From: Sulfolobales archaeon
Lineage (GTDB): Archaea > Thermoproteota > Thermoprotei_A > Sulfolobales > AG1
Length of the DNA stretch: 46,254 nucleotides
Assembly: GCA_038897115.1 (NCBI GenBank)
Contig: JAWAXC010000007.1
Span: 1-46,254, forward strand
Reading direction: 5' to 3'
In this document: piece after piece, positions 7,717 through 45,614 of the stretch
Position numbering within the stretch: the first letter of the stretch is position 1
Layout of the letters: every line of letters begins with the position of its first letter
Translations under genes and position numbers: made by a program
Notes under the pieces: model-generated
The model's input: only the letters and a program-made list of their open reading frames with translations
Databases searched by the model: none
Told to the model about the DNA's origin: nothing

Positions 7717-8460
7717 ATGGTTACTAGGCTATCTACAGGGATACATGATTTAGATCTAATGATTGAGGGAGGGATACCCGAAGGATTCTTTATAGCAATA
7801 GTAGGAGAGCCGGGTACTGGGAAAACGGTTCTGAGCATGCACTTCATACACCAGGGCATCCTAGATGGGGATAGATGTATATATGTTACCACAGAGGAGG
7901 ATAGAGAATCAATTATGGATCAGGCTATGAGATTTGGATGGGAGTGGAAACCCTTCCTAGGGAAAAGGCTCATAGTTATAGATGCTCTGAAGACACAAGA
8001 GGATCCATGGTCTCTGCAGGAGATGGAGGTGGAGACATTGATAAACAAGATTATAGAGGCTAAGAAGGCTCTGGGCTATGGAAGAGCTAGGCTTGTAATC
8101 GATTCCATATCTGCTTTCTGGCTTGAGAAACCAGCTATGGCTAGAAAATATAGTTATATGATTAAAAAGGCTCTCAGTAGATGGGGCTTCACTACATATC
8201 TAGTCTCGCAATACGCGATCACAACAATGTTTGCCTTCGGCTGGGGTGTTGAGCATATAGCAGATGGTATTATAAGGCTTAGAAGAAGGATTTCAAAGGG
8301 GGTTTTAAAGAGATACCTCATGGTGGAGAAGATGAGGAATACAAACCATGATAAGAAGATCTATGAGATAGATATTACAGCGAGAGGCCTCACAATCTTA
8401 GGGCCTGCCGATCTTGATATAGAGGATGTATCATCACCCAGCTATATATCTGGTAGATAG
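7717..8460 (+). CDS. KaiC/RadA-like RecA-superfamily ATPase
   Basis: 247 residues, a single KaiC domain. It opens LSTGIHDLDLMIEGGIPEGFF, then Walker A GEPGTGKT at 30-37, the catalytic acidic pair TTEED at about 58-62, and Walker B RLVIDSISAF near 125-134. Such stand-alone KaiC proteins are abundant in archaea; some regulate motility (ArlH) or signalling, but most have no assigned role. This copy has the complete ATPase core and a C-terminal strand region (KIYEIDITARGLTILGP) typical of the family. It starts 47 nt after the GGPP synthase and precedes a membrane glycosyltransferase; a common operon is possible but unproved. Confidence 0.85.
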   Translation: MVTRLSTGIHDLDLMIEGGIPEGFFIAIVGEPGTGKTVLSMHFIHQGILDGDRCIYVTTEEDRESIMDQAMRFGWEWKPFLGKRLIVIDALKTQEDPWSLQEMEVETLINKIIEAKKALGYGRARLVIDSISAFWLEKPAMARKYSYMIKKALSRWGFTTYLVSQYAITTMFAFGWGVEHIADGIIRLRRRISKGVLKRYLMVEKMRNTNHDKKIYEIDITARGLTILGPADLDIEDVSSPSYISGR

Positions 8461-8506: not shown

Positions 8507-9679
8507 ATGAAGAAGGCATTGAACACTCTCATTATTCTAGGCTTTATTACAGTAGTAATGAGCATCTACATACATGATCCCATCTTTCTAGGCCAATATA
8601 CCGATTATATAGCAATATATATTAGAGATCCATCTAAAACTATAACCGGATATCCATATCTGGATTACCCCTTTGAATACACACCTCTAATAGCTCTTCA
8701 ATGGATGGTTGCATCAAAAATAGCTCTCTATATGCTCTCCCATGGATTCGATCCACTCTCATCTATCACAAGGGCATTCTATATAACCAATACTATCTTC
8801 TACGCACTATATATACTCGCTATATATTTCATAGCACAAGAGGCTAATGCGTCCAGGGTATCAAAAGCTTTAGCTATAATCTCTCCATCTATGGTCTACT
8901 ATCTCTTCTATAACTGGGATATATCTGCATCAGCTTTAATGGCTATAGGTCTTTTTCTGCTATTGAGAGCTAGGTATTATATGGCATCGTTTTTTCTCGG
9001 GCTCGCCGCATCTATAAAGATATTCCCTGGAATAGCTATTCTTACATCAGCGATCATCATGTATAGAGAGGGACTAGGCCTTAGAAAAATACTTATAGCC
9101 CTGGCTATAGGTGTATCTACAGCGTTAGCACCATATATAATTCTTCTCCTAGTATATGCTCCAGCGTTTTTCTATATAATTAGCTATCACTCTAACTGGT
9201 ATTGTGAGAACTGCTTCTATGTGCTCTTTACCAGCGATATATTTGATCCACGTTTCAGAATGGTGTCTACCGCGCTTATGATCTCTATACCCCTTCTCTA
9301 TTCCTTTTATATATTTAAATATAGTTCTATCACAAAGCACCTATCTGTAATGGCCCCCCTGATCTCTACATCTCTCTCGATAAGCTTTTCATATGTATAT
9401 TCACCCCAGATGAATATCATGATCTCCCCCCTCTACATAGCTCTCAGAGATAAGAAAACCTATTTGCTCCTCCTCCAAGATATTCTTAACACCCTTATCA
9501 TGATACTATGGTTTCATGAAAGTACTATCTCAGGATCTCTGGGTATTGAGAGTAGGGGTCCCTGGCATAGAGAGAGTCCTATACAATGGATAGCGTTTAC
9601 CAGGATATTACTGCTATGGATAATAGCGATTCTTATTGCTAGAGAGTTGAAATTAGAGACGCGTTTCAAATCAATATAG
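8507..9679 (+). CDS. Polytopic membrane GT-C type glycosyltransferase (GT87/DUF2029-like)
   Basis: 390 residues with about ten hydrophobic segments. An early loop has YPYLDYPFEYTPLI, where GT-C enzymes carry their acidic motif and the YPP-like patch, and SIKIFPGIAIL at about residue 165 matches the GT87/DUF2029 motif (xxKxxPxx). These enzymes use polyprenyl-phosphate sugars on the outer face of the membrane to build glycans. ATG 8507 follows GGGTAGGATAAT. The substrate is unknown. An extracytoplasmic loop contains two cysteines in close spacing (WYCENCF), perhaps a disulfide or metal site. It lies immediately after the KaiC gene. Confidence 0.65.
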   Translation: MKKALNTLIILGFITVVMSIYIHDPIFLGQYTDYIAIYIRDPSKTITGYPYLDYPFEYTPLIALQWMVASKIALYMLSHGFDPLSSITRAFYITNTIFYALYILAIYFIAQEANASRVSKALAIISPSMVYYLFYNWDISASALMAIGLFLLLRARYYMASFFLGLAASIKIFPGIAILTSAIIMYREGLGLRKILIALAIGVSTALAPYIILLLVYAPAFFYIISYHSNWYCENCFYVLFTSDIFDPRFRMVSTALMISIPLLYSFYIFKYSSITKHLSVMAPLISTSLSISFSYVYSPQMNIMISPLYIALRDKKTYLLLLQDILNTLIMILWFHESTISGSLGIESRGPWHRESPIQWIAFTRILLLWIIAILIARELKLETRFKSI

Positions 9680-9724: not shown

Positions 9725-10390
9725 CTAGGTATTCTTCTCCTCCCTATATGGGCTTCTAAGAATCCTAACAATTTCCTGAGCCTTCCACTCAGAGATACCC
9801 TCGACCCTGCTTAGTTCTGAGGGACTTGCGCTGAAAACAGCCAAAACGCTCCCGAATTTTCTAAGCAGCCTTCTAGCTAGCTTTGGGCCTATATATGGCA
9901 AGCTCTGAACTATATATAACTGCCACTCCTCAATACTCTCTAGCTTCGGCTTTTTATGTGCTACAGGATATCTATAAAGGCTACTCTGGCTCTTCTGGGC
10001 TAGTGTGTGTATAAAATAGGCGGCTTCCTCATCATCTGAGGAATATACAATGCTAACACCATCTTCTCCTACAAGCCTCGCCAATGATCCATACACCGAT
10101 TGCCATCTATCAGTATAGAGTCTGATCTCGGAGGGCGAGCCCTGAACTAATATAATGGCTCTCTCATAAACCTCTAAAAGCCTTCTCACCTGATCGAATA
10201 GACGACCATCAAATATGCTCCTAACAAGATCGTGGATGTTTTTCCTCTCCACAGCGATTGTATCTGCTACCACATAGTCTCCAACATCTAGCATCTTATA
10301 TACAATATAATCTCCTAATCTACTCAGTATCTGGGGTATCCCTGACATCCTTTCCCTCTCATCAACAATTATCTTTGGCATTGTCCCCAT
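9725..10390 (-). CDS. xpf: XPF/Mus81-family structure-specific DNA endonuclease (short, helicase-less)
   Basis: 221 residues: an ERCC4 nuclease domain with IIVDERER near residue 7, GDYVVADTIAVERK ending at 50 (the (V)ERK metal and catalytic motif), then a C-terminal tandem helix-hairpin-helix region (LPYIGPKLARRLLRKFGSV...SRVEGISEWKAQEIVRIL). Crenarchaeal XPF lacks the N-terminal helicase of euryarchaeal Hef and cuts 3' flaps and branched DNA, usually with PCNA. Crenarchaeal homologues often end in a PCNA-binding box; the tail here (SPYREEKNT) does not show a clear one. Start ATG at 10390; MPKIIVDERER, three codons on, is the alternative. Confidence 0.9.
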   Translation of the reverse strand: MGTMPKIIVDERERMSGIPQILSRLGDYIVYKMLDVGDYVVADTIAVERKNIHDLVRSIFDGRLFDQVRRLLEVYERAIILVQGSPSEIRLYTDRWQSVYGSLARLVGEDGVSIVYSSDDEEAAYFIHTLAQKSQSSLYRYPVAHKKPKLESIEEWQLYIVQSLPYIGPKLARRLLRKFGSVLAVFSASPSELSRVEGISEWKAQEIVRILRSPYREEKNT

Positions 10391-10707
10391 GTAATATTAT
10401 AGAATATTACTAGGCTATATTAGGCATCCTGACTTTTATAAATGGAAGAAGCTATCTATGGGAATATCTATTGATACTTCTAGCTATATTGAGGGCCTCT
10501 GACATTAATTAATAGATCGATCTAGCTGAGATATAGCTTAGGCCCAGAATTTTATATAGATCAATTTTTATATTCTTGTAATAGAATTTTCCGTCTTTAT
10601 CAATAATTAAGCAGAGATATTAATTACTGATGATATTAAGCTAACGAGAAATATTTTCACTAACCTCTGAGGGTTTTTAAATATGAAGTATTTTTATGGA
10701 GATGAAC
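10391..10707. other. Intergenic region between divergent xpf and pilus operon
   Basis: Very AT-rich, with no supported gene. It contains the xpf promoter region at the left and the pilin promoter at the right (TTTTTAAATA at 10674-10683, centred about 29 nt before ATG 10708), suggesting a nearly leaderless pilin transcript. Several TA-rich near-repeats are present, but none forms a clear operator. Confidence 0.5.
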
Positions 10708-11160
10708 ATGGGTATCGGGAAAAGGTATATAAAGGGTTTGAGCGAGCTGGTAGTGATCATGATAGCTGTTGCGATAGCGATTCCAGTGATGTTTCTCCTC
10801 CAGGCATGGTTAACAGGACAGATAGCCAAGATGCCTGAGCTGGAGTCTGTAGCAGCTACCTATAATGCTAAACTCATTAATACGAATACTATATTGGTAA
10901 GTATTACTGTTACTAACAATGGTAATGATCCTATAAGTGTTGATAGCATCTTAGCCGTGTATACCACGAGCAACGGATCTATAAAGCCGCTAAACACAAC
11001 CACAACGCTATCTGGAAATCTGCCAATAACTATAGATCCCAAGTCAAGTAAAACCATCATAATAAATATTGATGGAGCCTCGAATGTCGATAGCATAGTT
11101 GTGGCTGTAAGATCGCTAACTACAAATGCTCAGAAAATGATAAAGGCAACAGGAATTTGA
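10708..11160 (+). CDS. Type IV pilin-like protein with class III signal peptide
   Basis: 150 residues from ATG 10708 (in-frame ATGs at 10696 and 10702 add a few residues; GGAGATGA stands just before 10708). MGIGKRYIKG is the charged leader; predicted PibD/ArlK cleavage is after Gly of KG, before LSELVVIMIAVAIAIPVMFLL, the hydrophobic assembly helix with Glu near +3. The mature remainder is a beta-rich, Thr/Asn/Ser-rich domain (ITVTNNGNDPISVDSILAVYTT) typical of surface-exposed archaeal pilins and archaellins. It is the first gene of an operon with its assembly ATPase starting 11 nt downstream, so it is likely the main filament subunit. Confidence 0.85.
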   Translation: MGIGKRYIKGLSELVVIMIAVAIAIPVMFLLQAWLTGQIAKMPELESVAATYNAKLINTNTILVSITVTNNGNDPISVDSILAVYTTSNGSIKPLNTTTTLSGNLPITIDPKSSKTIIINIDGASNVDSIVVAVRSLTTNAQKMIKATGI

Positions 11161-11171
11161 TGGTGATCTAG

Positions 11172-12671
11172 TTGCTTAGATTTTACACAAAAAACCTTTT
11201 TTCTAGATCTAAAAGCATTGAATCGATTCTAAGAAGGAGACTCATAGGAAGCAAGGGATCCATTATGGCTAAGAGGGTTAGCACAACAGATGAGGAGAAT
11301 ATAAGCACTATTACCATAAATCAGGATAAAACGAATTCAGAGTTTGGAGAGATCCTATTTGAATATAGCGTGGGGCCATATAAAATCTCTGTCATGAGCC
11401 TAGATGGAGAGTATATATATCTTTCTGAGCTGGTTCCTAAGCCCTCTAAAGAGTTATTAACTATTATAGAGGGGGCGGCGCGGGAGCTAATTAGATATGT
11501 TCCTGAAGATCAGGATCTGGATGACTATTATATAGCAGAAGTACTTAAGAGGATCTATAGTATTCCGCACGACTATATAGATCTCTCTATCTACCTAGTT
11601 AAGGAGAAGCTTAGATATGGTAAAATCCAGGTTCTTCTAGACGACCCCTATGTAGAGGATATAAGTGTAAGCGGTCCAGGCCCTGTTTGGATCAGGCATA
11701 GGAGTATAGTTGAGATAAACCCTAATGTAGATATGATTAGAACAAATATAGTGCTTAGCATGGATGACGTGCTCTCTCTACAAAGATATATATCTACTAG
11801 ATGTGGTGTATATCTATCTAGATCGAATCCAATAGTGGATACACAGCTTCCAAACTCCGACGGCGGGCACAGGGTTCATATGGTTGATATCATAGTAGCC
11901 GGTGAAAGGCCAGAGATATCTATTAGGAAGAAGCTGAGGGAAAGGGTAACAATTGAATGGCTAATCGAGAGGGGATCTATCCCGAGGGCTGTAGCAGAGT
12001 ATCTAAAGCTTGTGGTTTGGAGTAGAGGCTCCATCGTAATTGCAGGGCCCCCTTCTAGTGGTAAGACCACGCTTTTAAAGGCAATACTATATAGCTTTGT
12101 ACCTCCAACCTGGAAGGTAATTATTATAGAGGATACCCCAGAGATAGAGATACTTGAGAACAGCCCCTGGATAAGATATTCCACATATGATCTCGGATCT
12201 CTTCACATAGATCAATTTCTTCTCGCAAAGGCAGCACTTAGATCATCTGCTAACAAGATCCTAGTCATAGGTGAGACTAGAGGAGCTGAAGCACAGGTTC
12301 TCTCACAGGCCCTTAATATGGGTATGGGTGCAATAACAACATTCCACGGCGGATCCTCGGAAGAGGTTATTACAAGACTTATGTCCCCACCAATAAGTCT
12401 CTCAAAACACCAGATCAGCAGTATATGGACAATAGTTGTAATGAGCTCTGAATGCCAGGAGATCCGTAAAACATCGAGATGCGTGCGTAGCGTAGATGAG
12501 ATAATACCTATAGGAGATGATATTAAGATTAAGAACCTATACTCTCTAGGGATAGGAGAGCCGAACACTGGAGAGCTTATATTGAATAGCTCTAGACTAC
12601 CCACCTATGTAAAGGAGAAGGCGGCGATAGCTGTAGCTGAGAAGGGGGGTAATGGTGGGGCTTCTAGCTGA
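11172..12671 (+). CDS. Type II/IV secretion (GspE/FlaI/TadA-type) assembly ATPase
   Basis: 499 residues. The N-terminal domain (about 60-250) leads into a RecA-like core: Walker A GPPSSGKT at 292-299, Asp box IIEDTPEIEI at 318-327, Walker B ILVIGETRGAEA at 363-374, His box GMGAITTFHGGS at 384-395. This is the hexameric cytoplasmic motor that extends type IV pili or archaella. A variable Ser/Thr-rich stretch fills the first 55 residues. Start TTG 11172 follows GGTGATCT. Its end overlaps the platform gene by 20 nt, so the pair is coupled. The absence of archaellum accessory genes argues for a pilus rather than an archaellum. Confidence 0.92.
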   Translation: MLRFYTKNLFSRSKSIESILRRRLIGSKGSIMAKRVSTTDEENISTITINQDKTNSEFGEILFEYSVGPYKISVMSLDGEYIYLSELVPKPSKELLTIIEGAARELIRYVPEDQDLDDYYIAEVLKRIYSIPHDYIDLSIYLVKEKLRYGKIQVLLDDPYVEDISVSGPGPVWIRHRSIVEINPNVDMIRTNIVLSMDDVLSLQRYISTRCGVYLSRSNPIVDTQLPNSDGGHRVHMVDIIVAGERPEISIRKKLRERVTIEWLIERGSIPRAVAEYLKLVVWSRGSIVIAGPPSSGKTTLLKAILYSFVPPTWKVIIIEDTPEIEILENSPWIRYSTYDLGSLHIDQFLLAKAALRSSANKILVIGETRGAEAQVLSQALNMGMGAITTFHGGSSEEVITRLMSPPISLSKHQISSIWTIVVMSSECQEIRKTSRCVRSVDEIIPIGDDIKIKNLYSLGIGEPNTGELILNSSRLPTYVKEKAAIAVAEKGGNGGASS

Positions 12672-14118
12672 TATAAGAAGAAGATATATAGATCTTGTTT
12701 CGCTCTCGATTTCCAGCTATAGAGACTATATATCGCTTGGGGCTGAGGCTAGATTAGCTCTAATCGGATCTTTAGCTTCTATAGTATCATCGATCTTAAT
12801 TATAATCTTTATAGAGATACACTATAAGTTTGAACTATCCTTTCTAATAGCTGTGGTTGGAACACTGTTATCTAGTTATAAGGTAATAGAGAGGATCTCA
12901 AAATCTCTTGAGAGGAGAAAGGGGCTTGTGGAAGAGCTTCCCTATCTAATGTTCATGGCATCTGTCACAGCCAAGACGGGTATGGAATTAATAGAAGCGT
13001 TAACATTTATAGCTACTAACGATAGCAAAGGGAGGGTTTTTAGATATTTCTCAGGTATATCGAAGAGACTGGTTAACATATCTAAATATATAAGCATCTA
13101 TGATGCCTTAGAAAATATATCGGGTATACCAAGAGCTGTTAAGAGGGTATTTCTTAGCTATATAGCTAGCATCGCCCAAGGTATAGGTGTCGAGGCCTTA
13201 AGATCTATGGGGGCGGAGATGATCAGGGAGTCATCGAAGCAGATCTCTAGAATAATAGATCTTTCCGCCCAGGGAGGGCTACTAGCTGTGATGATTATGA
13301 CAACAGCTCCTATGCTGATCCTAGGTATTTCCCCAATAGTTGGAGGCTATATAGCACTTTCAGCGGCTATCATGATTACTATTGCGACACCACTTATATT
13401 GATAGCTATACCTCCAACGCCATACCCATTTAGGCAGATCCCCGTATTATCGCCTAAACTATATTCAATACTTAGGGCACTATCTATTTCAACCCTTATT
13501 GGGCTCTACATAAGTCTGTATATACAGATGCTTATACAACCAGTTAATTTACCATCTAGAGAACCCATTATGAGCTTGATCTATATTTTCTCCTTATTAC
13601 TAATAGTTCTAGGCCTTATCTTCACAGCTATTTATATCTTCTATATTAGAAATATGAGATCGATTAGAGATCTCTTAGAGGCGGCTGGTAGCTATGTTAG
13701 AGTATATAGAACCCTAGCAGGTTTCGATATAGATAGATATCTTAGTGGTATAAAGCTATCGGTTCCATGGATACTAAGCTATATAGCGCTTTCAGTTAGA
13801 TTTCTAATGGAAAGGGGAGAGATAGATCCATACGTATTTAGTAGATTTTCAGATGAGATAGGGGATATTCTTTCGAAGAGTGTTAATAAGCTCTTCACAT
13901 CTTCGATCCCTCTAGCATCCTCGCTTCTGCAACCAATATTTCTCTCCCAGATTATCTTAATGATGCATGTTGGAGAGCTATATACATTCATATTATCAGC
14001 TGTATCCATACTTGCAGCATCACTTATATCCTCTAAGGTGTTCTTCGGCGAGATCTATAATACTCTTATCCCTGGGATATCGATGATCCTTCTCTCACTG
14101 CTTATGCCTTTGAGGTGA
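12652..14118 (+). CDS. TadC/FlaJ-type pilus platform membrane protein
   Basis: 488 residues with about nine hydrophobic segments in two T2SF-like halves. Cytoplasmic stretches include ERISKSLERRKGLVEELPYLMFMASVTAKTGMELIEAL, the usual T2SF pattern (pLxxFxxxLaxxxxsGxxlxxAL), and a second related stretch near 140-210 (SGIPRAVKRVFLSYI...SMGAEMIRESSKQ). The platform anchors the assembly ATPase and pulls pilins from the membrane. ATG 12652 lies inside the end of the ATPase gene after GGGGGGTA. The last four nt overlap the next gene (GTGA). Confidence 0.87.
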   Translation: MVGLLADIRRRYIDLVSLSISSYRDYISLGAEARLALIGSLASIVSSILIIIFIEIHYKFELSFLIAVVGTLLSSYKVIERISKSLERRKGLVEELPYLMFMASVTAKTGMELIEALTFIATNDSKGRVFRYFSGISKRLVNISKYISIYDALENISGIPRAVKRVFLSYIASIAQGIGVEALRSMGAEMIRESSKQISRIIDLSAQGGLLAVMIMTTAPMLILGISPIVGGYIALSAAIMITIATPLILIAIPPTPYPFRQIPVLSPKLYSILRALSISTLIGLYISLYIQMLIQPVNLPSREPIMSLIYIFSLLLIVLGLIFTAIYIFYIRNMRSIRDLLEAAGSYVRVYRTLAGFDIDRYLSGIKLSVPWILSYIALSVRFLMERGEIDPYVFSRFSDEIGDILSKSVNKLFTSSIPLASSLLQPIFLSQIILMMHVGELYTFILSAVSILAASLISSKVFFGEIYNTLIPGISMILLSLLMPLR

Positions 14119-16514
14119 CGAATATGATCCAAAGGATTGGAAAGACCTATAAAGTGGAAGAAGTGAGGAGGATAGAGGTACCGCAGCTTCTAGCCAGCTA
14201 TGGTCTTACGCTAAAGCCCTCTAGAATTAACCTGGAAGCGATATTTGTTGAGGTTCAAAGCAATATAGATATTATAGTGAGGCCCTCGATCGGGATTAAA
14301 ACTAGCTCTATAAAGCCATGGATCTTCTATGTTGAGTCAGATGTTCCCAGGCTCTGTATAGATTCAGCATGTTATAATCTAGAGAATAGGCTCAAGATCG
14401 CTCCGCTTAGCGAGAATACCTTTATAGCCTCCTCTGGGAAAAAGGGCTATCTGATCGAGGTACTGGGGGAGGGGTTGAGTGTGAGAAATATAGATGTTGG
14501 GGGGATTATAGGTTATGCACCATTCACAGATAGGATAGTGCTTCTCATATCATCGAGAGGGCTTAGGAGGAAGGTGATGGCAGTTGATCAGGGATACACC
14601 TATAGTATTGATTCTTATTGTATTGAGAGGGTGGAGGGGCATTCACTAGTAGCTTATGAGTCTGAGGGATACACAAGGATCTACTTTGGAGTAGACTATG
14701 GTGGCTACTCCTTCTACGATATCAAGGGATCTCCAAGTATATGTAGCATAGGTCATCGTGTTGCAAGCATAGGAATCAATGGGAAGGGCTCTATATACAT
14801 TGGTAGAGGCCTCTATCTAGAAACCCCTCTAAACTCAAAGGCCATTGCATGGATACCCGAGAAGAGAGAGCTTCTCCTATATGATGAGAAAAGTGGATGG
14901 CTCATAGAGAGTGACTTAAAGAGTTTTAAACCTATAGCTAGGCTGCCGGAGAAACCTATATATATTGGCTCTACTAAAGACTCCCATATAGTATCTGTAT
15001 CAGGCAATATTCTAGCTATAAAGGATTCTATTCTAGTTAGACCCGATCTACATGGGCGGATGATTAGAGCTGTTTCAGCAAGCCATAAGGGTATTGTTAT
15101 CGACACCGGTAATAATACGTTGATCGCATCTATAGATGGGAGGGTTCTAAAAGAACTGAAGAAGAGAGAGGATATAACCTGTTGGGGCTTTACGGATAAG
15201 CTTCTCTGTATATCAGGTTACTTCATAGGTATTATAGATCCTGATAAGGAGGAAGAGATCATTGTAGGTGAGCTTGAACAAGAACCTGGGATCTATGTAA
15301 AGGGATCTAAAGCGATCCTAGATATAAGTTTAGAGGGGCCAATAGATATTCTAGATAGTATTAGAGATGGAGATAGGTATATTGCTAAGATAGCATCGAA
15401 GACGCTTACAGGTGAAGTAGAGGTTAAGATGGTGCTTAAAAACCTATTGGAAGATCATGTGTTAAATGCTAAGCTACATATACCGCTACCTGAGATCGAG
15501 GTAGTAGAGGCTGAAATGATCACAACACCAAGTGGGATTTTTATGAAGTGTAATAGCCCTGGTTATGTAAAGGCTATTATCAATATGAGAGGAAAAGAGG
15601 GATTCCACGAACTCTATAAATATGTTGCAAGGGTGAAGACTGGAGAAAAGGTTATTGGTAAGAAGAGCTTCATATATATAGGAAATGCAGAGCCGATTAA
15701 ACTAGAAATATGTATAGATGCAGGAGTTGAAGAAGCGGAGCTCGAGATAGTAGGTTTTAGAGAGGTAGAGGGAGAGGCATTCTATAGATCAACTGTTAGG
15801 GGCAGATCTATAGATATGATACCAAAGCTGGAGATAATACATAGAGAAGGATTTAGCAGAATATATCTAAAGATAAACACAATCGGAGATCTCAAGGTAG
15901 ATAGAGCTACGTTGAGACTCTCCTGCCTAAACACCGTCTTTGAAAAGAGCGTTGAGGGGGAGGATGAAATAGTTATGAATATCGCTGGATGCGAAGCACC
16001 CGCCTCAATATCTATAATCGCTGAGGCTGGGGGATTTATATGGCGATTCTCAAGAAATATCACTCTTAAGGAGTTAGAGATATGCTTAAACAAATATATG
16101 AGTCAGGGCACACTAGATAGGGTGAGATGTTCTGAGGGAGGGTTCTACAAATATGTTGATGGTATATCCTATGAGGATAGATCCCCTATAAGAAGTATGG
16201 ATATATTTTATGGAAGAGGATGCACCCTTATACTAGATACTACTAAGGATGCTAGCTACATCGTTACAAGCATCGTGGGAGGGCTATATAGATATGGCTC
16301 TCTAAAGTCTGGGATAAACCGCATTGATCTCGATAGATGTTGCGTAGATATGCCTCTCCGCCTATGTATATATGATGGGGCTTCATATAGAGAATACCTG
16401 ATCAATCCCCCACCTGTGGAGAAGCTGGTTAAACATGCATATGTAACATCATATAAGCTCTATAATATTCTGGAGAGGATAGTCAATGAATATCAAGAAG
16501 ATCTTGGGGATTAG
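14115..16514 (+). CDS. Large unknown protein of the pilus operon (799 aa, beta-rich)
   Basis: I do not recognise a family. No signal peptide or membrane helix is visible, so it is probably cytoplasmic unless exported by an unknown route. Residues about 60-400 consist of repeated short strand-turn units of roughly 40-45 residues (LLLYDEKSGWLIESDLKSF, SILVRPDLHG, TLIASIDGRVLKEL), suggesting a beta-propeller; the rest looks like successive beta-sandwich domains, with a final amphipathic helix (YKLYNILERIVNEYQEDLGD). It is unusually rich in cysteine for a thermophile's cytoplasmic protein (for example LCIDSACY, RCCVDMPLRLC). GTG 14115 overlaps the platform gene by 4 nt and its end overlaps the VirB4 N-domain gene by 29 nt, so it is an integral operon member. 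Confidence 0.8.
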   Translation: MTNMIQRIGKTYKVEEVRRIEVPQLLASYGLTLKPSRINLEAIFVEVQSNIDIIVRPSIGIKTSSIKPWIFYVESDVPRLCIDSACYNLENRLKIAPLSENTFIASSGKKGYLIEVLGEGLSVRNIDVGGIIGYAPFTDRIVLLISSRGLRRKVMAVDQGYTYSIDSYCIERVEGHSLVAYESEGYTRIYFGVDYGGYSFYDIKGSPSICSIGHRVASIGINGKGSIYIGRGLYLETPLNSKAIAWIPEKRELLLYDEKSGWLIESDLKSFKPIARLPEKPIYIGSTKDSHIVSVSGNILAIKDSILVRPDLHGRMIRAVSASHKGIVIDTGNNTLIASIDGRVLKELKKREDITCWGFTDKLLCISGYFIGIIDPDKEEEIIVGELEQEPGIYVKGSKAILDISLEGPIDILDSIRDGDRYIAKIASKTLTGEVEVKMVLKNLLEDHVLNAKLHIPLPEIEVVEAEMITTPSGIFMKCNSPGYVKAIINMRGKEGFHELYKYVARVKTGEKVIGKKSFIYIGNAEPIKLEICIDAGVEEAELEIVGFREVEGEAFYRSTVRGRSIDMIPKLEIIHREGFSRIYLKINTIGDLKVDRATLRLSCLNTVFEKSVEGEDEIVMNIAGCEAPASISIIAEAGGFIWRFSRNITLKELEICLNKYMSQGTLDRVRCSEGGFYKYVDGISYEDRSPIRSMDIFYGRGCTLILDTTKDASYIVTSIVGGLYRYGSLKSGINRIDLDRCCVDMPLRLCIYDGASYREYLINPPPVEKLVKHAYVTSYKLYNILERIVNEYQEDLGD

Positions 16515-17076
16515 GGATGATATTGCAAAGATCCTATATGGATCGTCAGATCTAAGGCTAGTTAAGGGGAGAATCGTTAGCTGTTGGAATAAGGGGTGTG
16601 TGGCAAAGGGCTTTCTAATTGTAAGAGATTTTATCGATATGCCAGAGGATCTCAGTGAAAGAGATCTAAGGAAAATACTGAATTCATATGTAAGGACACT
16701 TGCAGAGAACGCCCCAATAGATCTAAGGGTTATAGTGCTTCCAACAAGATCAGATGAGGTTATAGCTAGGATAGAAAAGGCTATACAGGTGAAGCAGATC
16801 ATATTAGAATCTGATCCTTCAAATGAAAAGCTAAGAACCGAGATCGAGAGGCTCAAAAGGATAAAGAAGAGGATATTAGATGGGGAGATGCCCTTCTCGA
16901 TCAACATGATCTTCGGTGTAACAGCTTTAGGAACCACAGAGGAGGAGGCAATTGAGAAGCTATCTCGCAAAATGGAGATCCTGAAGGAGGAGCTCAGAGG
17001 GTTGGGTATATATGTAGAGGATCTCAGAGGCCTAGGGGCTATAGCATTTATTAATGAGTTTTTTCGCAGAGCCTAG
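16486..17076 (+). CDS. VirB4 N-terminal-domain-like protein (split VirB4, first part)
   Basis: 196 residues. The middle and end (IDLRVIVLPTRSDEVIARIEKAI..., LRTEIERLKRIKKRILDGEMPFSINMIFGVTALGTTEEEAIEKLSRKMEILKEELRGLGI) follow the helix-then-strand layout of the CagE/TrbE/VirB4 N-terminal domain seen in front of conjugation ATPases: one coiled segment, a 'dGe.pf..n.i.gv.a.g.teeea...l..k...l...l...Gi' strand-helix unit. The gene ends 23 nt inside the next one, which encodes the ATPase half in the +1 frame. ATG 16486 follows GAGAGGATAG. Two readings are possible: separate subunits, or one VirB4 protein made by +1 frameshifting at a T-run. Confidence 0.65.
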   Translation: MNIKKILGIRDDIAKILYGSSDLRLVKGRIVSCWNKGCVAKGFLIVRDFIDMPEDLSERDLRKILNSYVRTLAENAPIDLRVIVLPTRSDEVIARIEKAIQVKQIILESDPSNEKLRTEIERLKRIKKRILDGEMPFSINMIFGVTALGTTEEEAIEKLSRKMEILKEELRGLGIYVEDLRGLGAIAFINEFFRRA

Positions 17077-18244
17077 AGGACTCCTTCTAAAAATCATTAG
17101 CAAGATAGTTAGCAGACCTTTCCTAGCATCATCTATCCACTCTATATACTTCTCCCCCTTCCTAAGAACATCTCTCCATTCAAGGGGGATCCATAAAAGC
17201 GGGATTCTAATAGGTAGAATAATAAATAGTGGGAGAAACATCTTTTGGAACCCCAACAACTCTATGAGCCCTCACGTAATAGTTGTGGGGCCAACAGGTT
17301 CCGGTAAGACGGAGACCTTGATAAGCATCGCTACAAAGATGCACTCTATTTTCTCAACAACCATTCTCGCTATAGATGTGAAGGGGGATATAGAGGCTAG
17401 GCTATTGAAGAGGGGATATCCATTTAGATCTATAGATATACCTAAAACCCCCCTAGGATCTCTCTACCCATTCTACATAGATCCAAATGCTAGGGCTGGT
17501 CAGGTTTTCGATGCTATAATCAGCTCCTTCGATGTTAATGATATAAAGATGCAGGCAGCTATATACAAAGCGATTAGAGGGGCTTATGAGAAAACTCCAA
17601 CGCCTAGCTGGCAGAATGTGCTCTTTGAACTCTCTCAGGAGGATGAGCATGTTAGGATACTAGTATCGAGGATTGTGGATGAGATCTCCTATCTAGATGG
17701 TGGAAGACAGCAGGCTGGACATTATGAGATTGTTGAGGGAGAGGTAAATATTATATCGCTCTCGAGGATCTCTAAGGAGAAAGAGGAGATGCTAAGCTAT
17801 GCAATGAACATGATTTTTCAAGATATGCTTAACTATATGTCCTCTAAGCATGTAGATCCTAGATATGTTGGGGGAGCGATAGTAATAGATGAGGCATGGA
17901 TCCTCACTAGGAAGGGGAAGAGCCCGGCTAGACTATTAAACCTAGTAAAGCTATCCAGGGGATATGGGCTAGCCGTTCTTCTAGCCACACAGAGTTTCAG
18001 AGATTTTGGGGATGAATGGGATAGGATTTTAGAGAACTCAGGTCTCTTGATAGCGCTTAGCAATCCAAGTAAAAGGTTCTGGAGCGATGCGTCTAAATTC
18101 CTGAAAATAGATAGAGAAGCTATAGAAGAGCTCATGGTTATAATGAGAAGGGGTGATGCCCTTATAAGAATCCTCCCAGATCCCAGGCCCCTACCCGTTT
18201 CCCTCGAGATAGAAGCTATAGAAGATCTTATGGTGGTGAGGTGA
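17054..18244 (+). CDS. VirB4/HerA-like ATPase (split VirB4, motor part)
   Basis: 396 residues: RNIFWNPNNSMSPHVIVVGP then Walker A GPTGSGKT at 79-86, IDVKGDIE, and Walker B GAIVIDEAWIL near 274-284, followed by VLLATQSFRDFGD (sensor-like Gln). This matches archaeal VirB4/TraC-like ATPases of conjugation and type IV secretion. The ATG at 17054 has no good ribosome site directly upstream and lies at a run of six T in the end of the preceding frame, so the protein may be made by frameshift or by coupled re-initiation. It is the last gene of the pilus operon. HerA/FtsK-type DNA translocases are the nearest alternative family. Confidence 0.85.
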   Translation: MSFFAEPRGLLLKIISKIVSRPFLASSIHSIYFSPFLRTSLHSRGIHKSGILIGRIINSGRNIFWNPNNSMSPHVIVVGPTGSGKTETLISIATKMHSIFSTTILAIDVKGDIEARLLKRGYPFRSIDIPKTPLGSLYPFYIDPNARAGQVFDAIISSFDVNDIKMQAAIYKAIRGAYEKTPTPSWQNVLFELSQEDEHVRILVSRIVDEISYLDGGRQQAGHYEIVEGEVNIISLSRISKEKEEMLSYAMNMIFQDMLNYMSSKHVDPRYVGGAIVIDEAWILTRKGKSPARLLNLVKLSRGYGLAVLLATQSFRDFGDEWDRILENSGLLIALSNPSKRFWSDASKFLKIDREAIEELMVIMRRGDALIRILPDPRPLPVSLEIEAIEDLMVVR

Positions 18245-33605: not shown

Positions 33606-34616
33606 TTAATATGGCGGATTCAGCTTCTCTCTAACGCTCTTAGCTATTCTCCTCAAAAGCCTCAGCTTTTTCACCGCTATTATCTCTGGGAGGAATTCTA
33701 AGCTAGTATTATGGGTTATATATAGCTCTCCACCATTTCTCTTTCTAGCTATCTCAAGGATCCTATGTACCAGATCTTTATAATTCTCCATCCTAGTTGT
33801 TCTAGCATTGACAATAGCAAGAGCTAGGCCTCCCATAGATGCTAGATCACCTATCCTATCCCAGGGAGGGGATGTTTCAGCAACATCTACTGTGTAGAAT
33901 ATATTATCATACCTACTGGCTAATCTCACGAATATCTGTAGTACTTCCCATCTATATCCAAAATATGTGATAATCCAAAATCTGGAATCCGGGAATCTCT
34001 CTAAAAGCTCCCTATATATATTCTCAATATATCCTAGCGGTGCCTCATAAACTACTAAAGATGGCTCATGAAGATCTATGTTTTTAACACCAATTCTAAG
34101 GCTTCTCTCTACCTCTAGAAAAACGACTTTCTCAATATAATCCCTCATAAATTCCTCAACACTATATATACTTTGATCTAGGAGAGAGTTTGTAACCATA
34201 GTAAATGGTCCTGGAAGGCTTAATGCTATTCTGTTAATCGGAATATCAATTTTCTTTGCAACTTCAACGCTTTTCTCGAGAATCGCTGATGCCATCGCTT
34301 CTCTATAGCTGATTTTATTTTTAATAACTGGTTGTCTGAAGAAATAGTTATTGTCATAGAACCTCTTAAGCCCATCAATCTCTATACCATCGATCCCAGA
34401 GATCATAGGGTTAAATATATCATCCCATCTAAACATTCCATCACTAAATCTATCGTACCCCAGGCTTAACATGTATTTAAAAAATCTCTCAGTATATCGG
34501 GCATATATTTTATCTAGATCGTCTTTCGAGAGCTTTCCAGACATATACCTTGATATTGCTCTAGCGAGCCCTCTGGGCCTGGGATATAAGCCGTGTTGCA
34601 TTAGATATACCTCCAT
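33606..34616 (-). CDS. MetE N-terminal-domain-like protein (split methionine synthase partner)
   Basis: 336 residues, a TIM-barrel of the cobalamin-independent methionine synthase type: LSLPGPFTMVTNSLLD, KNIDLHEPSLVVYE (equivalent to the DEP segment) and ELYITHNTSLEFLPEIIAVKKLRLL near the C terminus, as in MetE N-terminal barrels. The zinc-ligand cysteines of the catalytic half are missing, so it is likely the folate or pterin-binding partner rather than the catalyst. It starts 2 nt after the catalytic gene, so both are made together. Its start ATG 34616 is followed by an in-frame ATG at 34601. Confidence 0.75.
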   Translation of the reverse strand: MEVYLMQHGLYPRPRGLARAISRYMSGKLSKDDLDKIYARYTERFFKYMLSLGYDRFSDGMFRWDDIFNPMISGIDGIEIDGLKRFYDNNYFFRQPVIKNKISYREAMASAILEKSVEVAKKIDIPINRIALSLPGPFTMVTNSLLDQSIYSVEEFMRDYIEKVVFLEVERSLRIGVKNIDLHEPSLVVYEAPLGYIENIYRELLERFPDSRFWIITYFGYRWEVLQIFVRLASRYDNIFYTVDVAETSPPWDRIGDLASMGGLALAIVNARTTRMENYKDLVHRILEIARKRNGGELYITHNTSLEFLPEIIAVKKLRLLRRIAKSVREKLNPPY

Positions 34617-34618
34617 AT

Positions 34619-35650
34619 CTACCCCCTCAACTCTATCTTAGACATACCCCTCGCTATATATTCTCTTCTAGCTATATTGGTTCCCTGCACCATAACCTCA
34701 AGCTTCCTCCTAGCAATATCTCTAGGGAGTAGCTTGAGCCCACAGTCTGGGTTAATATATATTCTATCTGGTTCAACATATTTTGTCGCCTTCTCTATAG
34801 CTCTAGCGATACTCATAGGATCCTCAATAGCTCTATTATGAACATCGATAACCCCTAGGCCTATCTCTTTATCCCCCAACTTCGAAAGAACATGAAGATC
34901 CCTGTAGCCTCTATTGGCGAATTCAAGCGCGAATTGGCTGAATGCCAGTCTTTCGAAGTACTTAGAGAGGAGCTCATAATCACTATAGCATACATGAATA
35001 CCCAGCTTTATATTAACACCTCTGGTAACCTCATTTATAGCCTCTACAGCCCATTCCATCTCCTCAGGGTGTGTTGTTAGAGCTGGCTCATCTACTTGGA
35101 TGAAAAGGGCTCCCGCTTCCTGTAGTGTTAAAATCTCTCTATTTATTATCTTTGCCAACTCGAATACGAGCTCCTCTTTAGAGTTATAGTATTCGTTGAA
35201 GCTCCAATCCGCAATAGTATATGGGCCTGTTATAGTTACTTTCACAACACTCCTCCTACTAACTCTCCTGAGAAACTGGTATTCCCTTAGCACTATAGGC
35301 TCTCTATAGCTTAGCTTAGATACAACAGCTGGTTTGTTGAAAAAGTTGTTACCCCATACCCTTACAGGGCCGTAGAATTTAAAGCCATCGATCCTAGCTG
35401 CGAAATATTCTACCATCTCATCTCTTCTCATCTCACCATCACTAGGTATATCTATACCAGCCTCCTCCTGCTCCCACACAACGATCCTCACGGCATCGTT
35501 AAACGCCTCCTCAAGGGCTTTATCATCTACCCTTCCAACGGACCACTGTCTAATCATATTTCTAAGCCATCTCGGCCTTGGATAGCTACCTATCACACTA
35601 GTAGGGAATATAGGAAGCTCTATACCCAGGCTTCTCCTCAATTTGGTCAA
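34619..35650 (-). CDS. metE: Methionine synthase, cobalamin-independent catalytic domain (MetE C-terminal type)
   Basis: 343 residues. TSVIGSYPRP at the start and IPSDGEMRRDEMVEYF are family motifs; zinc and homocysteine ligands are His219 and Cys221 (LGIHVCYSD), Glu243 (ALEFANRG) and Cys303 (INPDCGL). FIQVDEPALTT is the DEP motif. The enzyme transfers a methyl group to homocysteine. In archaea the methyl donor is probably a pterin or corrinoid methyl carrier rather than the triglutamate folate of plants. The two MetE halves are separate genes here, catalytic half first. Start ATG 35650. Confidence 0.88.
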   Translation of the reverse strand: MTKLRRSLGIELPIFPTSVIGSYPRPRWLRNMIRQWSVGRVDDKALEEAFNDAVRIVVWEQEEAGIDIPSDGEMRRDEMVEYFAARIDGFKFYGPVRVWGNNFFNKPAVVSKLSYREPIVLREYQFLRRVSRRSVVKVTITGPYTIADWSFNEYYNSKEELVFELAKIINREILTLQEAGALFIQVDEPALTTHPEEMEWAVEAINEVTRGVNIKLGIHVCYSDYELLSKYFERLAFSQFALEFANRGYRDLHVLSKLGDKEIGLGVIDVHNRAIEDPMSIARAIEKATKYVEPDRIYINPDCGLKLLPRDIARRKLEVMVQGTNIARREYIARGMSKIELRG

Positions 35651-40479: not shown

Positions 40480-40929
40480 TTGATTAGGGCTGAGGATATT
40501 ATGACTCCTAATCCTATCACAGTTAGGCTTGATGAGAGTGTGGCTAAGGCTGCGAAGATTATGTCTGAAAACAAGATTGGCTCTGTGATTGTTATTGATA
40601 GTGGGGGTAAACCCATTGGTATTGTGACTAGTCATGATATCTTAGAAAAGGTTGTGGCGAGAGGTCTAAATCCGAATGAGGTTAGTGTGGGTAGGGTTAT
40701 GTCGAGTCCTCTAATATATGTTGATGCCTCTACACCTATAGATAAGGTTATAGAGGTTATGCTTAGAGCTGGGATAAGACATGTTCCTGTGATGAAGGGG
40801 GAGAGATTGGTTGGGATAATAGCTGAGTATGATATAATAGCCCTAGGCCCTGAGATCTTCCAGGCGTTAGAGCTCTTTGAGGCTGCAATGATGGAGAGGG
40901 CTAGGAGGAAGAGGGGTTCTCGAGGCTAG
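40480..40929 (+). CDS. CBS-domain pair protein
   Basis: 149 residues made of two CBS domains: first IRAEDIMTPNPITVRLDESVAKAAKIMSENKIGSVIVIDSGGKPIGIVTSHDILEKVV, second VGRVMSSPLIYVDASTPIDKVIEVMLRAGIRHVPVMKGERLVGIIAEYDII. Such stand-alone pairs bind adenine nucleotides and regulate a partner. The basic C-terminal tail (MMERARRKRGSRG) could bind nucleic acid. Start TTG 40480 after GGGGTAATCC. Its 3' end overlaps that of the opposing HerA gene by 29 nt. Confidence 0.88.
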   Translation: MIRAEDIMTPNPITVRLDESVAKAAKIMSENKIGSVIVIDSGGKPIGIVTSHDILEKVVARGLNPNEVSVGRVMSSPLIYVDASTPIDKVIEVMLRAGIRHVPVMKGERLVGIIAEYDIIALGPEIFQALELFEAAMMERARRKRGSRG

Positions 40930-42610
40930 ATCCTCTAGCAATATTTATCCTATGGAACACCCTTTTACCTGCAATATATATGATTCCATGTAAAGGCTCT
41001 AGAGATCTAAGTGTTCTTCTGATCTCCTCCCTAGAAACTTCATCATACGCTACAAAGCTAGATATAACATCTATTACCTTTGGATCTGTCTGTCGTAGGA
41101 AGAAAAACAATCCAGCGTTATTGATGATCTCAGAGGGGAGTTTTTCGAATTGCTGTGTTGAAATCACAACTGCGAGGCCATATTTCCTGCTCTCCCTAAA
41201 GATCTTAGATATAAACTCCTCAGCAGATCCCTTTAGCAGGTTGTGCGCCTCATCTATAATGACAACCAGATCTACCTCTCCCCTCTGCCCCGTTGATATC
41301 TTATATCTCCATATCTGCTTCAATAGATATTCAACATATAATGTTGAAGCATATTCAGAGCCTATGTTACTCATATCTAGTATAATGTGGTTCTCTCCCC
41401 TAGATAGTGATGCCTCGATATCTATAGGTTCTCCCTTAATATGTGTTGCGAGAATCCTTAGATATGGGATTATGCTGAGTAAGAGCTCTCTAGCCTTCGG
41501 ATCTTCTTTAGATCTCTCAAGCATCTCCTCAGCAACGATGAGTAGCTCTCTAAAGCTCTTACCACCCCTTCTAATAGTCTCCACAGCTACAGCCGATAGT
41601 ATTGATACTTGGAGAGCCCCTAACCTGAAGATCTTCCTTATACTGTCCACAAGCTCTAGAACTCTGGCCTCGGTAAGTGTGTTTGGCAGTATCTGTGGAG
41701 ACGCTTCTGAGGCATCTATAACTCTAAAACCCTCTAAGCCTCTATATTCTCCGTGATAGTCAATCACTATAACACCTATCCCTATACTCTTAAAGCCTTT
41801 TGCGAGGATCTTGCAGAGAGTAGTCTTCCCACTACCAGTATTCCCACTAATTACTATATGCGGTGATGAAGCTGTATCGATGGGTATTCTAAGTTTAATA
41901 CCCTTTTCAAGGCGAATATCTGGTATCTCTATGGATTTTAAATTATTCATAGATATGAGTTGTTCTTTATAATATGCTATAGATGTGTAGAGATAGATAA
42001 TGGAACCCCAAGACCCAATAGGGAGTAGGAGCCTCGATATTCTATGTCTATTGCCTCCAGCAGCTATTATGAGGCTTGCTATTACAACTCCTATCATAAC
42101 TATCGGATCCATCAGCAGTAGAGATCTATATGTGATATCTAGCAGAATCAATATAAGATCTATGATAGCTATTATAACTACAGCTATCCCTAGTGATATC
42201 ATAGAAATATAGGGTGTTTGCTTTAGACTTCTAATGATATATAGCATTATTTCTCTAGCATCTCTAGTCATTATAATGGGTCTCCTTCTCTCCTTCAAAG
42301 CATATCTAGCTATCACTAAAGCAATAGTAATCTGTATACCCAATATGCTGCTAGATATCATATCAAACCCAGATCCTATGTAGAGCGTTAACAATGTATA
42401 GATGCTGAGAAAAAGGGCTGGTAAGAAGGGGAGCATTATTTCTAAGGACTCACGTAGGATTATATATATTGCAACATAGATCACCAGGAATATAGGGGTA
42501 GATATTATAGCATAGGAATTAATAGTTTTCACCAGGGCTAGCAGTAGAGGTGTATATGTTAAGATAGTTGTGAGGAGCGATGCTAAAGCTATTGATCTAT
42601 ATGATTGCAA
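40901..42610 (-). CDS. Membrane-anchored HerA/VirB4-like ATPase (CedB-like candidate)
   Basis: 569 residues. The first 215 hold about seven hydrophobic segments (near 6-27, 32-52, 57-78, 83-102, 136-158, 163-184, 193-213). The DUF87/HerA ATPase follows: Walker A SGNTGSGKTT at 255-264, IGVIVIDYHGEY, then Walker B VVIIDEAHNLL near 447-457 and VVISTQQFEKLP. HerA-family hexamers translocate DNA or drive export. The fusion to a polytopic membrane domain recalls CedB, the crenarchaeal DNA-import ATPase, which is also membrane-bound, but the number of helices is higher than I would expect. Start ATG 42610 (TTG-free). Its 3' end overlaps the CBS gene. Confidence 0.8.
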   Translation of the reverse strand: MQSYRSIALASLLTTILTYTPLLLALVKTINSYAIISTPIFLVIYVAIYIILRESLEIMLPFLPALFLSIYTLLTLYIGSGFDMISSSILGIQITIALVIARYALKERRRPIIMTRDAREIMLYIIRSLKQTPYISMISLGIAVVIIAIIDLILILLDITYRSLLLMDPIVMIGVVIASLIIAAGGNRHRISRLLLPIGSWGSIIYLYTSIAYYKEQLISMNNLKSIEIPDIRLEKGIKLRIPIDTASSPHIVISGNTGSGKTTLCKILAKGFKSIGIGVIVIDYHGEYRGLEGFRVIDASEASPQILPNTLTEARVLELVDSIRKIFRLGALQVSILSAVAVETIRRGGKSFRELLIVAEEMLERSKEDPKARELLLSIIPYLRILATHIKGEPIDIEASLSRGENHIILDMSNIGSEYASTLYVEYLLKQIWRYKISTGQRGEVDLVVIIDEAHNLLKGSAEEFISKIFRESRKYGLAVVISTQQFEKLPSEIINNAGLFFFLRQTDPKVIDVISSFVAYDEVSREEIRRTLRSLEPLHGIIYIAGKRVFHRINIARGSSLENPSSS

Positions 42611-43595: not shown

Positions 43596-45614
43596 ATGGT
43601 TTGGCCAAGGTCTTTTTCGATCTTCACGATCTTTATTATATTTCTCTTCATGTTAACCCCATATCTAGTGTATACATCATCAATATCTGTTATAGGTTAT
43701 GCAAGGGTTCCAGCTCTAGCTGTTTATATGCTTGAGAATGGGAGCTATGTTGGTTCTATATCGTGGATAGAGGTTAAGATATTGGCACCGGGGAGTGGTG
43801 AGGTCTATGTGTCTACAGAGCCTCTTAGTGATATAGATCTCCAGGCCTCTGGTAGGGCAGCGGTTTTAATTGCATCTTATCTAGCTAACATAGATCCCTT
43901 TAAATATGACTATCTAATCTCTATCAAGGCCAGCGCACCTATTGTAGGAGGGCCTTCTGCGGGTTCTGCGATGGTTGCAGCTATATTCTCAGCTCTTACA
44001 AATATATCTCTAGATCCTCTTGTTGCATCTACAGGGATGATCCTGCCAGATGGGCTTATAGGCCCTGTTGGGGGTGTTCCTGAAAAGGTTGTTGCCGCAG
44101 CTTCAAGCGGTTATAAAACCATCTTAATCCCGTGGGGACAGTCTATATATCCAGAAACTAGATATGTTAGACAGAGTATAGGTCCGATTTCTGTTATAAG
44201 ACCTGTAAGTGTGAATATTAATGTAAGCGATCTAGCATCTAGATATGGAGCAAGGGTTGTTGAGGTTGCATCAGCCGAGGATCTTTTAGAACTATTTACC
44301 AGAGGCGCATACCAAGCTCCTAAAGAGCTTATGAGCCCATATATCTCTACTGGCGAGGAGAGCATTCTTAAGAGCTCATATGGAAACTTTACACAGCTTC
44401 AAGAAAGATCTGCTTCCTCTGCTAATCAGAGAATAGGATCTATAAGGGATCGCCAGCTAGTCTCCTTAATAAATAGCCTTCTAACCAGCTCAGAGAGATA
44501 TAGAAATGAATCTTCCGCTCTATTTGAAAGGGGGCTATACTATCCAGCGCTCTCGATGATCTTCACATCCTATACTCTAGCTAGATATGCAGAAAACATA
44601 GCAGGTGTATTCACAGCCCAAGATGCTACTACGTATACGAAGAACTATATATCGTATGTGGGATCTATGCTGAATAGCTATAGAGATCTCTGGAGATCTC
44701 TAGCATATGGTAAAAAAGGCTATAGCATTGAAGAGCTATATATATTGCCGGAGATTTTCAGAAGACTTCAAGATGCTGAGTATAGTCTAAATATCTCTAC
44801 ACAGCTAGCATCTTCAGGCAATATAGTAGATTCGCTTTACTACGCATCATATGCCGAGGCGAGGCTGAGGAGTATAGACACCTGGCTATCCCTACTAGGT
44901 CTAGGTACTGACAGCATGGTTAACATAACATATGTAGAGAGGATCTCATATTGGATATATAGCTATGCAGCAACTTCCCTAGCATATCTCGAATCACTGT
45001 TAAGCTCGCTAGGCTATCAGCTACAATCTACCCAGAGTCTTGAGGATATGCTGAGGAGAGCATCAACATACCTGGCTGGTGGAGATTATATCGCATCTAT
45101 ATCCATCTCAACCGACATTATAACCAATACAACCCTTACAATACACTCTATGTTCTCAATAAATGTAACAGGGCTTGCAGACGTGGTTAGGAGGGAGGTT
45201 ATGAGGGTTCTCTCAACAATTGGAGGAGACTCTCCTATATCTGCAAGGCTATATGCCCAGATGGGAGATTATTTAGCAAGCTCTGGGGAATATCAGCAGG
45301 CGATATCATTCTATGAAGAGGCTCTCTTCATACTCAGGATCTCGAAGCTATTAAATAGCCAAGGGATATCGCTAAATAGATCCACAGCAGCTGTGGTAGA
45401 ACCAACCAGCACAGAGGTTTCCAGCGTGACTAGGTCTATATCTACTAATACATCTACCCAGATCATCTCTATAGGCGGCAAAAGCGGTGAAACATCTAGC
45501 GGGGCTAATAATGTGAGACTCATGTCTATGGTCATAACGATAATAGCTATTGCGGTTGTTCTTGTATCTGTAGCCCTAGCTATATACATCTATAGAAGAT
45601 CTAGATCCAGTTAG
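43596..45614 (+). CDS. Extracytoplasmic Lon-like (S16) serine protease, COG1750 type
   Basis: 672 residues. An N-terminal membrane anchor or signal peptide (FTIFIIFLFMLTPYLVYTSS) precedes a Lon-type protease domain: VGGPSAGSAM with catalytic Ser121 and GGVPEKVVAA with catalytic Lys164, plus GLIGPVGG between. No AAA ATPase domain is present. The C-terminal half is helical (about 260-590) with tetratricopeptide-like segments (GDYLASSGEYQQAISFYEEALFIL) and ends in a Ser/Thr-rich linker and a final membrane helix (SMVITIIAIAVVLVSVALAIYIY) plus basic tail. It is predicted to lie outside the cell, tethered at both ends. Start ATG 43596 after GAGGTG. Confidence 0.8.
   Translation: MVWPRSFSIFTIFIIFLFMLTPYLVYTSSISVIGYARVPALAVYMLENGSYVGSISWIEVKILAPGSGEVYVSTEPLSDIDLQASGRAAVLIASYLANIDPFKYDYLISIKASAPIVGGPSAGSAMVAAIFSALTNISLDPLVASTGMILPDGLIGPVGGVPEKVVAAASSGYKTILIPWGQSIYPETRYVRQSIGPISVIRPVSVNINVSDLASRYGARVVEVASAEDLLELFTRGAYQAPKELMSPYISTGEESILKSSYGNFTQLQERSASSANQRIGSIRDRQLVSLINSLLTSSERYRNESSALFERGLYYPALSMIFTSYTLARYAENIAGVFTAQDATTYTKNYISYVGSMLNSYRDLWRSLAYGKKGYSIEELYILPEIFRRLQDAEYSLNISTQLASSGNIVDSLYYASYAEARLRSIDTWLSLLGLGTDSMVNITYVERISYWIYSYAATSLAYLESLLSSLGYQLQSTQSLEDMLRRASTYLAGGDYIASISISTDIITNTTLTIHSMFSINVTGLADVVRREVMRVLSTIGGDSPISARLYAQMGDYLASSGEYQQAISFYEEALFILRISKLLNSQGISLNRSTAAVVEPTSTEVSSVTRSISTNTSTQIISIGGKSGETSSGANNVRLMSMVITIIAIAVVLVSVALAIYIYRRSRSS

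Follow-up and report, generated by a model that had tools for sequence, protein, structure and literature searches.

A conserved archaeal operon combining Ups-like type IV pilus genes with a split CedB DNA-import motor

Introduction

Why should the genes for a type IV pilus and a VirB4-like ATPase share one operon? The question is raised by six plus-strand open reading frames (ORFs) at positions 10696-18244 of a DNA stretch of 46,254 nucleotides from a heat-loving archaeon (JAWAXC010000007.1, assembly GCA_038897115.1; the whole stretch is the window hereafter), which is contig C7 of G000, a 2.44-Mb genome in 188 contigs that is 96% complete. A first-pass annotation had listed a class III signal-peptide pilin, a GspE/FlaI-type ATPase, a TadC/FlaJ-type platform, a large unknown and a VirB4 pair, and had proposed a pilus coupled to DNA transfer, analogous to but distinct from the Ced and Ted systems. 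In Sulfolobus, DNA exchange needs both Ced and Ups (PMC9905601), and DNA is imported by CedB, CedA and CedA1 (PMC9905601, PMC11868833). The explanation favoured here, with a probability of about 0.7, is that the six genes constitute a DNA-exchange operon uniting an Ups-like type IV pilus with the Ced import motor, being induced by damage, serving to pair cells, and having an UpsX-family protein in between. The proposed coupling of a pilus to DNA transfer gains support, but its separateness from Ced proves wrong, as the pair is CedB itself, CedA and CedD are encoded in the genome and CedA1 in its relatives, and the unknown can be placed with UpsX.

Results

Layout of the operon

All six tightly packed genes of the first-pass annotation were recovered, each adjoining or overlapping the next, with successive spacings of +11, -20, -4, -29 and -23 bases:

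10696-11160, plus strand: type IV pilin with a class III signal peptide, 154 amino acids (possible starts at 10696, 10702 and 10708; from the sequence)
11172-12671, plus strand: type IV pilus assembly ATPase of T2SSE/FlaI type in the UpsE position, 499 amino acids (Pfam PF00437)
12652-14118, plus strand: pilus platform membrane protein of T2SSF/TadC/UpsF type, 488 amino acids (sub-threshold Pfam and NCBIfam matches)
14115-16514, plus strand: UpsX-family protein, 799 amino acids (profile-profile comparison)
16486-17076, plus strand: CedB N-terminal part of a split gene, 196 amino acids (NF041017 positions 74-203; alignment)
17054-18244, plus strand: CedB C-terminal ATPase part of a split gene, 396 amino acids (NF041017 positions 234-587; alignment and tree)

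The pilin start previously given, 10708, is an in-frame ATG, although the ORF opens earlier, at 10696.

A CedB motor encoded as two genes

The NCBIfam CedB model, NF041017, has 590 positions and an equivalog cut-off of 700 bits, below which the 196- and 396-residue proteins fall. They align with successive parts of the model (2.9e-15 and 1.5e-75, respectively), and jointly retain the parts of the CedB fold; the larger also matches Pfam AAA_10, with intact Walker A (GPTGSGKT) and Walker B (AIVIDEA) motifs. No second CedB was found in the window genome with NF041017, the next match scoring 60 bits. The VirB4 N-domain and VirB4/HerA proteins are identified more exactly by these alignments as CedB, the Ced DNA-import motor, divided between two genes.

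Families of related genomes are numbered here, f1 being the window's own and f5 being taken as Sulfolobaceae because its CedB and UpsX exceed the curated cut-offs. CedB is also split in f1 and f8 genomes, and fused in f9. The halves stand 13-46 bases apart in three relatives (G086, G146 and G179), which rules out frameshifting as the means of fusing them, so this is gene fission.

The large unknown belongs with UpsX

Library searches with the 799-residue protein returned no Pfam family and no match to the NCBIfam UpsX model, against which the first gene of the ups operon in G023 scores 674.9 bits (cut-off 550). Comparison of a profile of 12 window-type proteins with an UpsX profile using hhalign, however, gave a probability of 99.2 (E = 1.7e-19) over 515 columns, with negative controls (E = 0.11 for reversed UpsX, and 0.02 to about 1 for the platform, ATPase and CedB families). 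An independent profile of 20 window-type proteins found the UpsX genes of G012, G032, G033 and G040 (1.9e-19 to 3.2e-8) and, in a search of 398 genomes of the phylum, matched nothing beyond the order. These two comparisons identify the supposed large unknown as a distant UpsX homologue.

AlphaFold2 modelled the whole protein with a predicted local distance difference test score (pLDDT) of 87 and a predicted template modelling score (pTM) of 0.63, and its first 400 residues with values of 90 and 0.86. The model is all beta, with a C-terminal helix at residues 768-798. Foldseek matched residues ~1-400 almost exclusively to beta-propellers, at template modelling (TM) scores of ~0.2-0.3, which are low enough to leave the type of propeller unfixed; the whole model also matched FN3/Ig-like chains, again with low TM-scores. 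Hence the protein is modelled as a beta-propeller-like N-terminal part (~1-400) followed by an Ig/FN3-like part. Cysteines 356, 365, 604 and 626 are invariant across 20 sequences.

Pilin, pilus ATPase and platform

The first-pass naming of the three pilus genes stands. The pilin has a class III signal, with cleavage at KG|LSELVVIMIAVAIAIPV, and its best NCBIfam match is UpsA (6.5e-5, far under the cut-off). The ATPase matches Pfam T2SSE PF00437 (5e-19) and has the Walker A motif GPPSSGKT. The platform has ~7 predicted transmembrane segments, and its matches to Pfam T2SSF PF00482 (0.0017) and NCBIfam UpsF (4.8e-4) are both sub-threshold. In a maximum likelihood (ML) tree, ATPases from UpsX-linked loci form a single clade (16 rows, 100/99).

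Conserved order across families

The order pilin-ATPase-platform-UpsX-CedB is found in each of the four f1 genomes in which this stretch is complete, namely the window, G095 (Desulfurococcaceae archaeon AG1, BEWT01000016, of the same genus as the window), G086 and G146 (Desulfurococcales archaeon EvPrim.Bin15), while in a fifth, G184, the contig ends inside UpsX. It recurs with a fused CedB in 16 of 18 f9 genomes; in the others, no pilin was detected (G116) or a contig end cuts the locus (G155). In f8, G179 keeps the order from the platform onward, and 11 more genomes (L049, L051-L054, L064 and L202-L206) have a gene for a protein of 755-833 amino acids directly ahead of the split CedB but no adjoining pilus genes that could be detected. 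The weak hhalign comparison of this protein with UpsX (82.9%, 237 columns) makes a relationship plausible. The synteny search therefore found the order across other genera and families, rather than the genes being scattered among relatives. A small protein of the SSO5209 family is encoded divergently to its neighbour, which in f9 is the pilin (L056:2954-3259, minus strand) and in f8 the UpsX-like gene (L051:6096-6437, minus strand).

CedB follows cedA1 and cedA in f2, f4, f11 and f14. An unrooted CedB tree separates the UpsX-linked copies (28 rows, 90/98) from those of Ced operons and Sulfolobaceae, a pattern that fits cedB having entered the pilus operon once.

Conjugative elements typically carry VirB4-type ATPases, raising the question of whether the CedB pair instead belongs to an integrated conjugative element abutting the pilus operon. 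This is highly improbable: no element border was found inside the operon, and the junction is identical in three families; the ATPase matches CedB, a chromosomal gene, rather than plasmid VirB4 models; and the neighbours are housekeeping genes by NCBIfam, with ThrRS downstream and XPF/KaiC upstream, the latter also present in AG1. A mobile-element border was hence rejected on synteny, and conservation of the order in f1, f9 and partly in a third family argues for a core system, rather than a mobile element or chance junction.

Three genes adjoin the operon in both the window and AG1 (L032), the order of the glycosyltransferase and XPF differing between the two:

7717-8460, plus strand: KaiC-type ATPase
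8507-9679, plus strand: GT87-like glycosyltransferase
9725-10390, minus strand: XPF nuclease

Pilus recognition in Sulfolobus proceeds via glycans, which makes a glycosyltransferase beside the operon of interest.

The remaining Ced components

CedA was traced through the ced operons that lie next to CedB in other families, with a profile that also finds Sulfolobaceae CedA. This profile detected CedA in the window genome at G000:C91:4-1008 (E = 1.5e-37), with the N-terminus missing where the contig ends. CedA was present in 17 of 18 genomes searched, in most of them with an adjoining CedA1-like match. CedA1 is next to CedA in AG1 and other relatives, a position that falls off the contig in the window genome. 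The CedA1 of AG1 matches the pilin of PDB 8DFU (1.3e-24), which we take to be the A. pernix CedA1 pilus described in work on the Ced pilus. CedD is encoded on G000:C6 (L008:1285-2835), scoring 289.5 bits along almost the full length of a model with a curated cut-off of 600 bits. NF041016 proved to be the wrong model for CedA, as it corresponds to ArnR.

Two observations concern the relatives and neighbours of cedD. Firstly, a 569-residue HerA/VirB4-like ATPase in the window (40901-42610, minus strand), with ~6 predicted transmembrane segments ahead of its ATPase domain, has a remote likeness to CedD (87 bits) and CedB (58 bits); it was dropped as a CedD candidate given the 289.5 bits of the C6 gene, and is not the CedD orthologue. 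Secondly, a TFIIB-type zinc-ribbon protein of 224-225 amino acids, in which no cyclin-fold domain was detected and which is reminiscent of the DNA-damage factor TFB3, is encoded directly before cedD at L008:2819-3493 (minus strand; G000:C6), where it overlaps cedD, and at L187:13251-13928 (minus strand; AG1).

CedA and CedD are located elsewhere in the window genome, and in none of the genomes examined were cedA and cedA1 inside the operon. That absence, and the sharing of an operon by both motors, would fit the split CedB being the second motor of the pilus machine, exporting DNA or protein without CedA. This is improbable given the near-universal presence of CedA, mostly with a CedA1-like match beside it, and the parts of the CedB fold kept jointly by the two halves. 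No type IV pilus is known to be driven by a relative of VirB4.

A UV-box-like promoter

The ups promoters of S. acidocaldarius that respond to ultraviolet (UV) light depend on a hexamer, A(N)TTTC, at -44 to -39 (PMC5817253). Two elements precede the window's operon:

10653-10658, plus strand: UV-box-like hexamer ATTTTC, within AATATTTTC (10650-10658), ~43 bases ahead of the first pilin ATG
10674-10683, plus strand: TATA-like TTTTTAAATA, downstream of the UV-box-like hexamer

The 9-mer AATAYTTTC, the last six bases of which are the A(N)TTTC hexamer, occurs in all five f1 operon promoters. In these, the hexamer begins 81-100 bases ahead of the site at which the pilin is cleaved, and an AT-rich, TATA-like region comes after it. 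The 9-mer has a background of 14 occurrences in 398,700 strand-bases of f1 DNA (0.035 per kb), and the published hexamer has a chance of 0.07-0.16 per 50-base promoter, with a product of 7e-6 over the five f1 operons, although the relatedness of the genomes means independence is overstated, and the 9-mer was picked after looking. The same scan found the motif ahead of upsX in G023 and G026. No UV-box was present at cedA1 in the three f1 genomes inspected, and Sulfolobus ced loci also lack one (PMC5817253). These motifs suggest that the operon of f1 is damage-induced.

Other features of the window

Two further loci lie elsewhere in the window: a pair of adjacent MetE-like methionine synthase genes encoding 336 and 343 amino acids (33606-35650, minus strand), and a 672-residue protein (43596-45614, plus strand) that has a Lon-type protease domain close to the N-terminus and, in addition, a long region matching nothing in NCBIfam.

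Discussion

The favoured explanation can be set out as a sequence of steps. Firstly, DNA damage would switch on the operon from its single UV-box promoter. Secondly, the ATPase and platform would assemble a type IV pilus by which cells are paired. Thirdly, the N-terminal and ATPase parts of the split CedB would make up a VirB4-like motor lying under the CedA channel and the conjugative pilus of CedA1, both encoded elsewhere. Fourthly, this motor would draw the partner's DNA inward for repair. The UpsX-family propeller protein would work at the import end, linking the pairing pilus to the motor as a scaffold or adaptor. Action at the motor, rather than in pilus assembly, is suggested by the position of the UpsX-family gene, with pilus genes on one side and CedB on the other, and by the UpsX-like gene that accompanies CedB where no pilus genes adjoin. 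In Sulfolobus, cells are paired by Ups pili. Deletion of upsX there leaves pili and aggregation normal but reduces the transfer of DNA, and after UV some of the UpsX protein relocates to the membrane (PMC3892339).

A closer integration can be envisaged, in which the UpsX propeller ties the pilus platform to the split CedB motor and CedA as a single machine, such that pilus contact directly triggers or feeds import. We regard this as doubtful; were it true, a type IV pilus and type IV secretion would function together as a hybrid that different archaeal families have conserved.

Several observations weigh against a DNA-exchange operon of this kind. The UV-box is absent from all 14 readable f9 operon promoters, limiting the suggestion of damage induction to f1, where the motif is present. 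Sulfolobaceae UpsE falls outside the clade of operon ATPases in the best ML tree, although joining them was not rejected by the approximately unbiased (AU) test (p = 0.222). There is one pilin rather than UpsA and UpsB, the gene order differs from that of ups, and the homology to UpsX is remote. In some genomes, G002, G019 and G030 for example, UpsX-family genes lie close to pilus genes although no CedB was detected in the genome, hence the coupling is not strict. The gene identities, the conserved order, the CedB tree, the Ced genes located elsewhere and the promoter motif are computational results, whereas damage induction, cell pairing, complex formation, the role of UpsX and the direction in which DNA moves are predictions.

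The separate ATPase clade, the f9 promoters lacking a UV-box and the genomes with no CedB detected, together with pilins that match UpsA weakly or not at all, would be expected if cedB had been carried into an adhesion-type pilus operon, with the pilus functioning in surface attachment or biofilms, CedB keeping its usual partners CedA and CedA1, and shared transcription being the only link. Yet such co-regulation is unlikely. The order is kept across families though the flanking genes change, every f1 promoter has the UV-box, and the published knockout ties UpsX to DNA transfer (PMC3892339); the UpsX-like gene beside CedB in the 11 f8 genomes, where pilus genes do not adjoin, also argues against it, within the limits of its weak homology. 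The DNA-exchange operon therefore remains the preferred explanation.

If so, cell contact and DNA uptake, encoded apart as Ups and Ced in Sulfolobus, are here combined in one conserved operon, suggesting that they are made as a unit. UpsX would be assigned a definite position at the import motor that can be put to the test, bearing on how pairing leads to import, and the naturally split CedB would be a useful object for structural work. Pilus-linked exchange of chromosomal DNA would also be extended beyond Sulfolobales. The host is a member of the Desulfurococcales by NCBI naming, and according to PMC11868833 other Crenarchaea lack Ups genes. No CedB-pilus operon is described in the literature passages searched; the 2016 Ced paper and all supplements lay outside their scope, so earlier notice is possible.

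Among known systems, the operon resembles the Ted system of Thermoproteales (TedA, TedB and TedC), where DNA exchange is likewise driven by a VirB4-like motor that has been domesticated on the chromosome (PMC9905601). It differs in that type IV pilus or UpsX genes are not reported in Ted loci, as judged by the published description. With Ced it shares CedB, CedA and CedD in the window genome, and CedA1 in relatives, whereas its CedB is two genes in a pilus operon, rather than standing alone, as in Sulfolobaceae, or after cedA1-cedA, as in other families. The likeness to Sulfolobus Ups lies in an UpsX-family protein encoded alongside a class III pilin and the ATPase and platform of a type IV pilus, and, in f1, in the UV-box promoter. 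Three differences separate the two: the order is pilin-E-F-X-CedB rather than upsX-upsE-upsF-upsA-upsB; one pilin replaces UpsA and UpsB; and CedB is inside the operon. The ATPase may be a fourth, being set apart from Sulfolobaceae UpsE in the best tree, with joining not rejected (AU p = 0.222). Calling the pilus Ups outright was dropped for the mismatched gene order and pilin number, and for an ATPase that is only a possible UpsE orthologue. Rather than an unrelated third system, this is a rearranged Ups-like system plus Ced, its known parts brought together in a new conserved combination.

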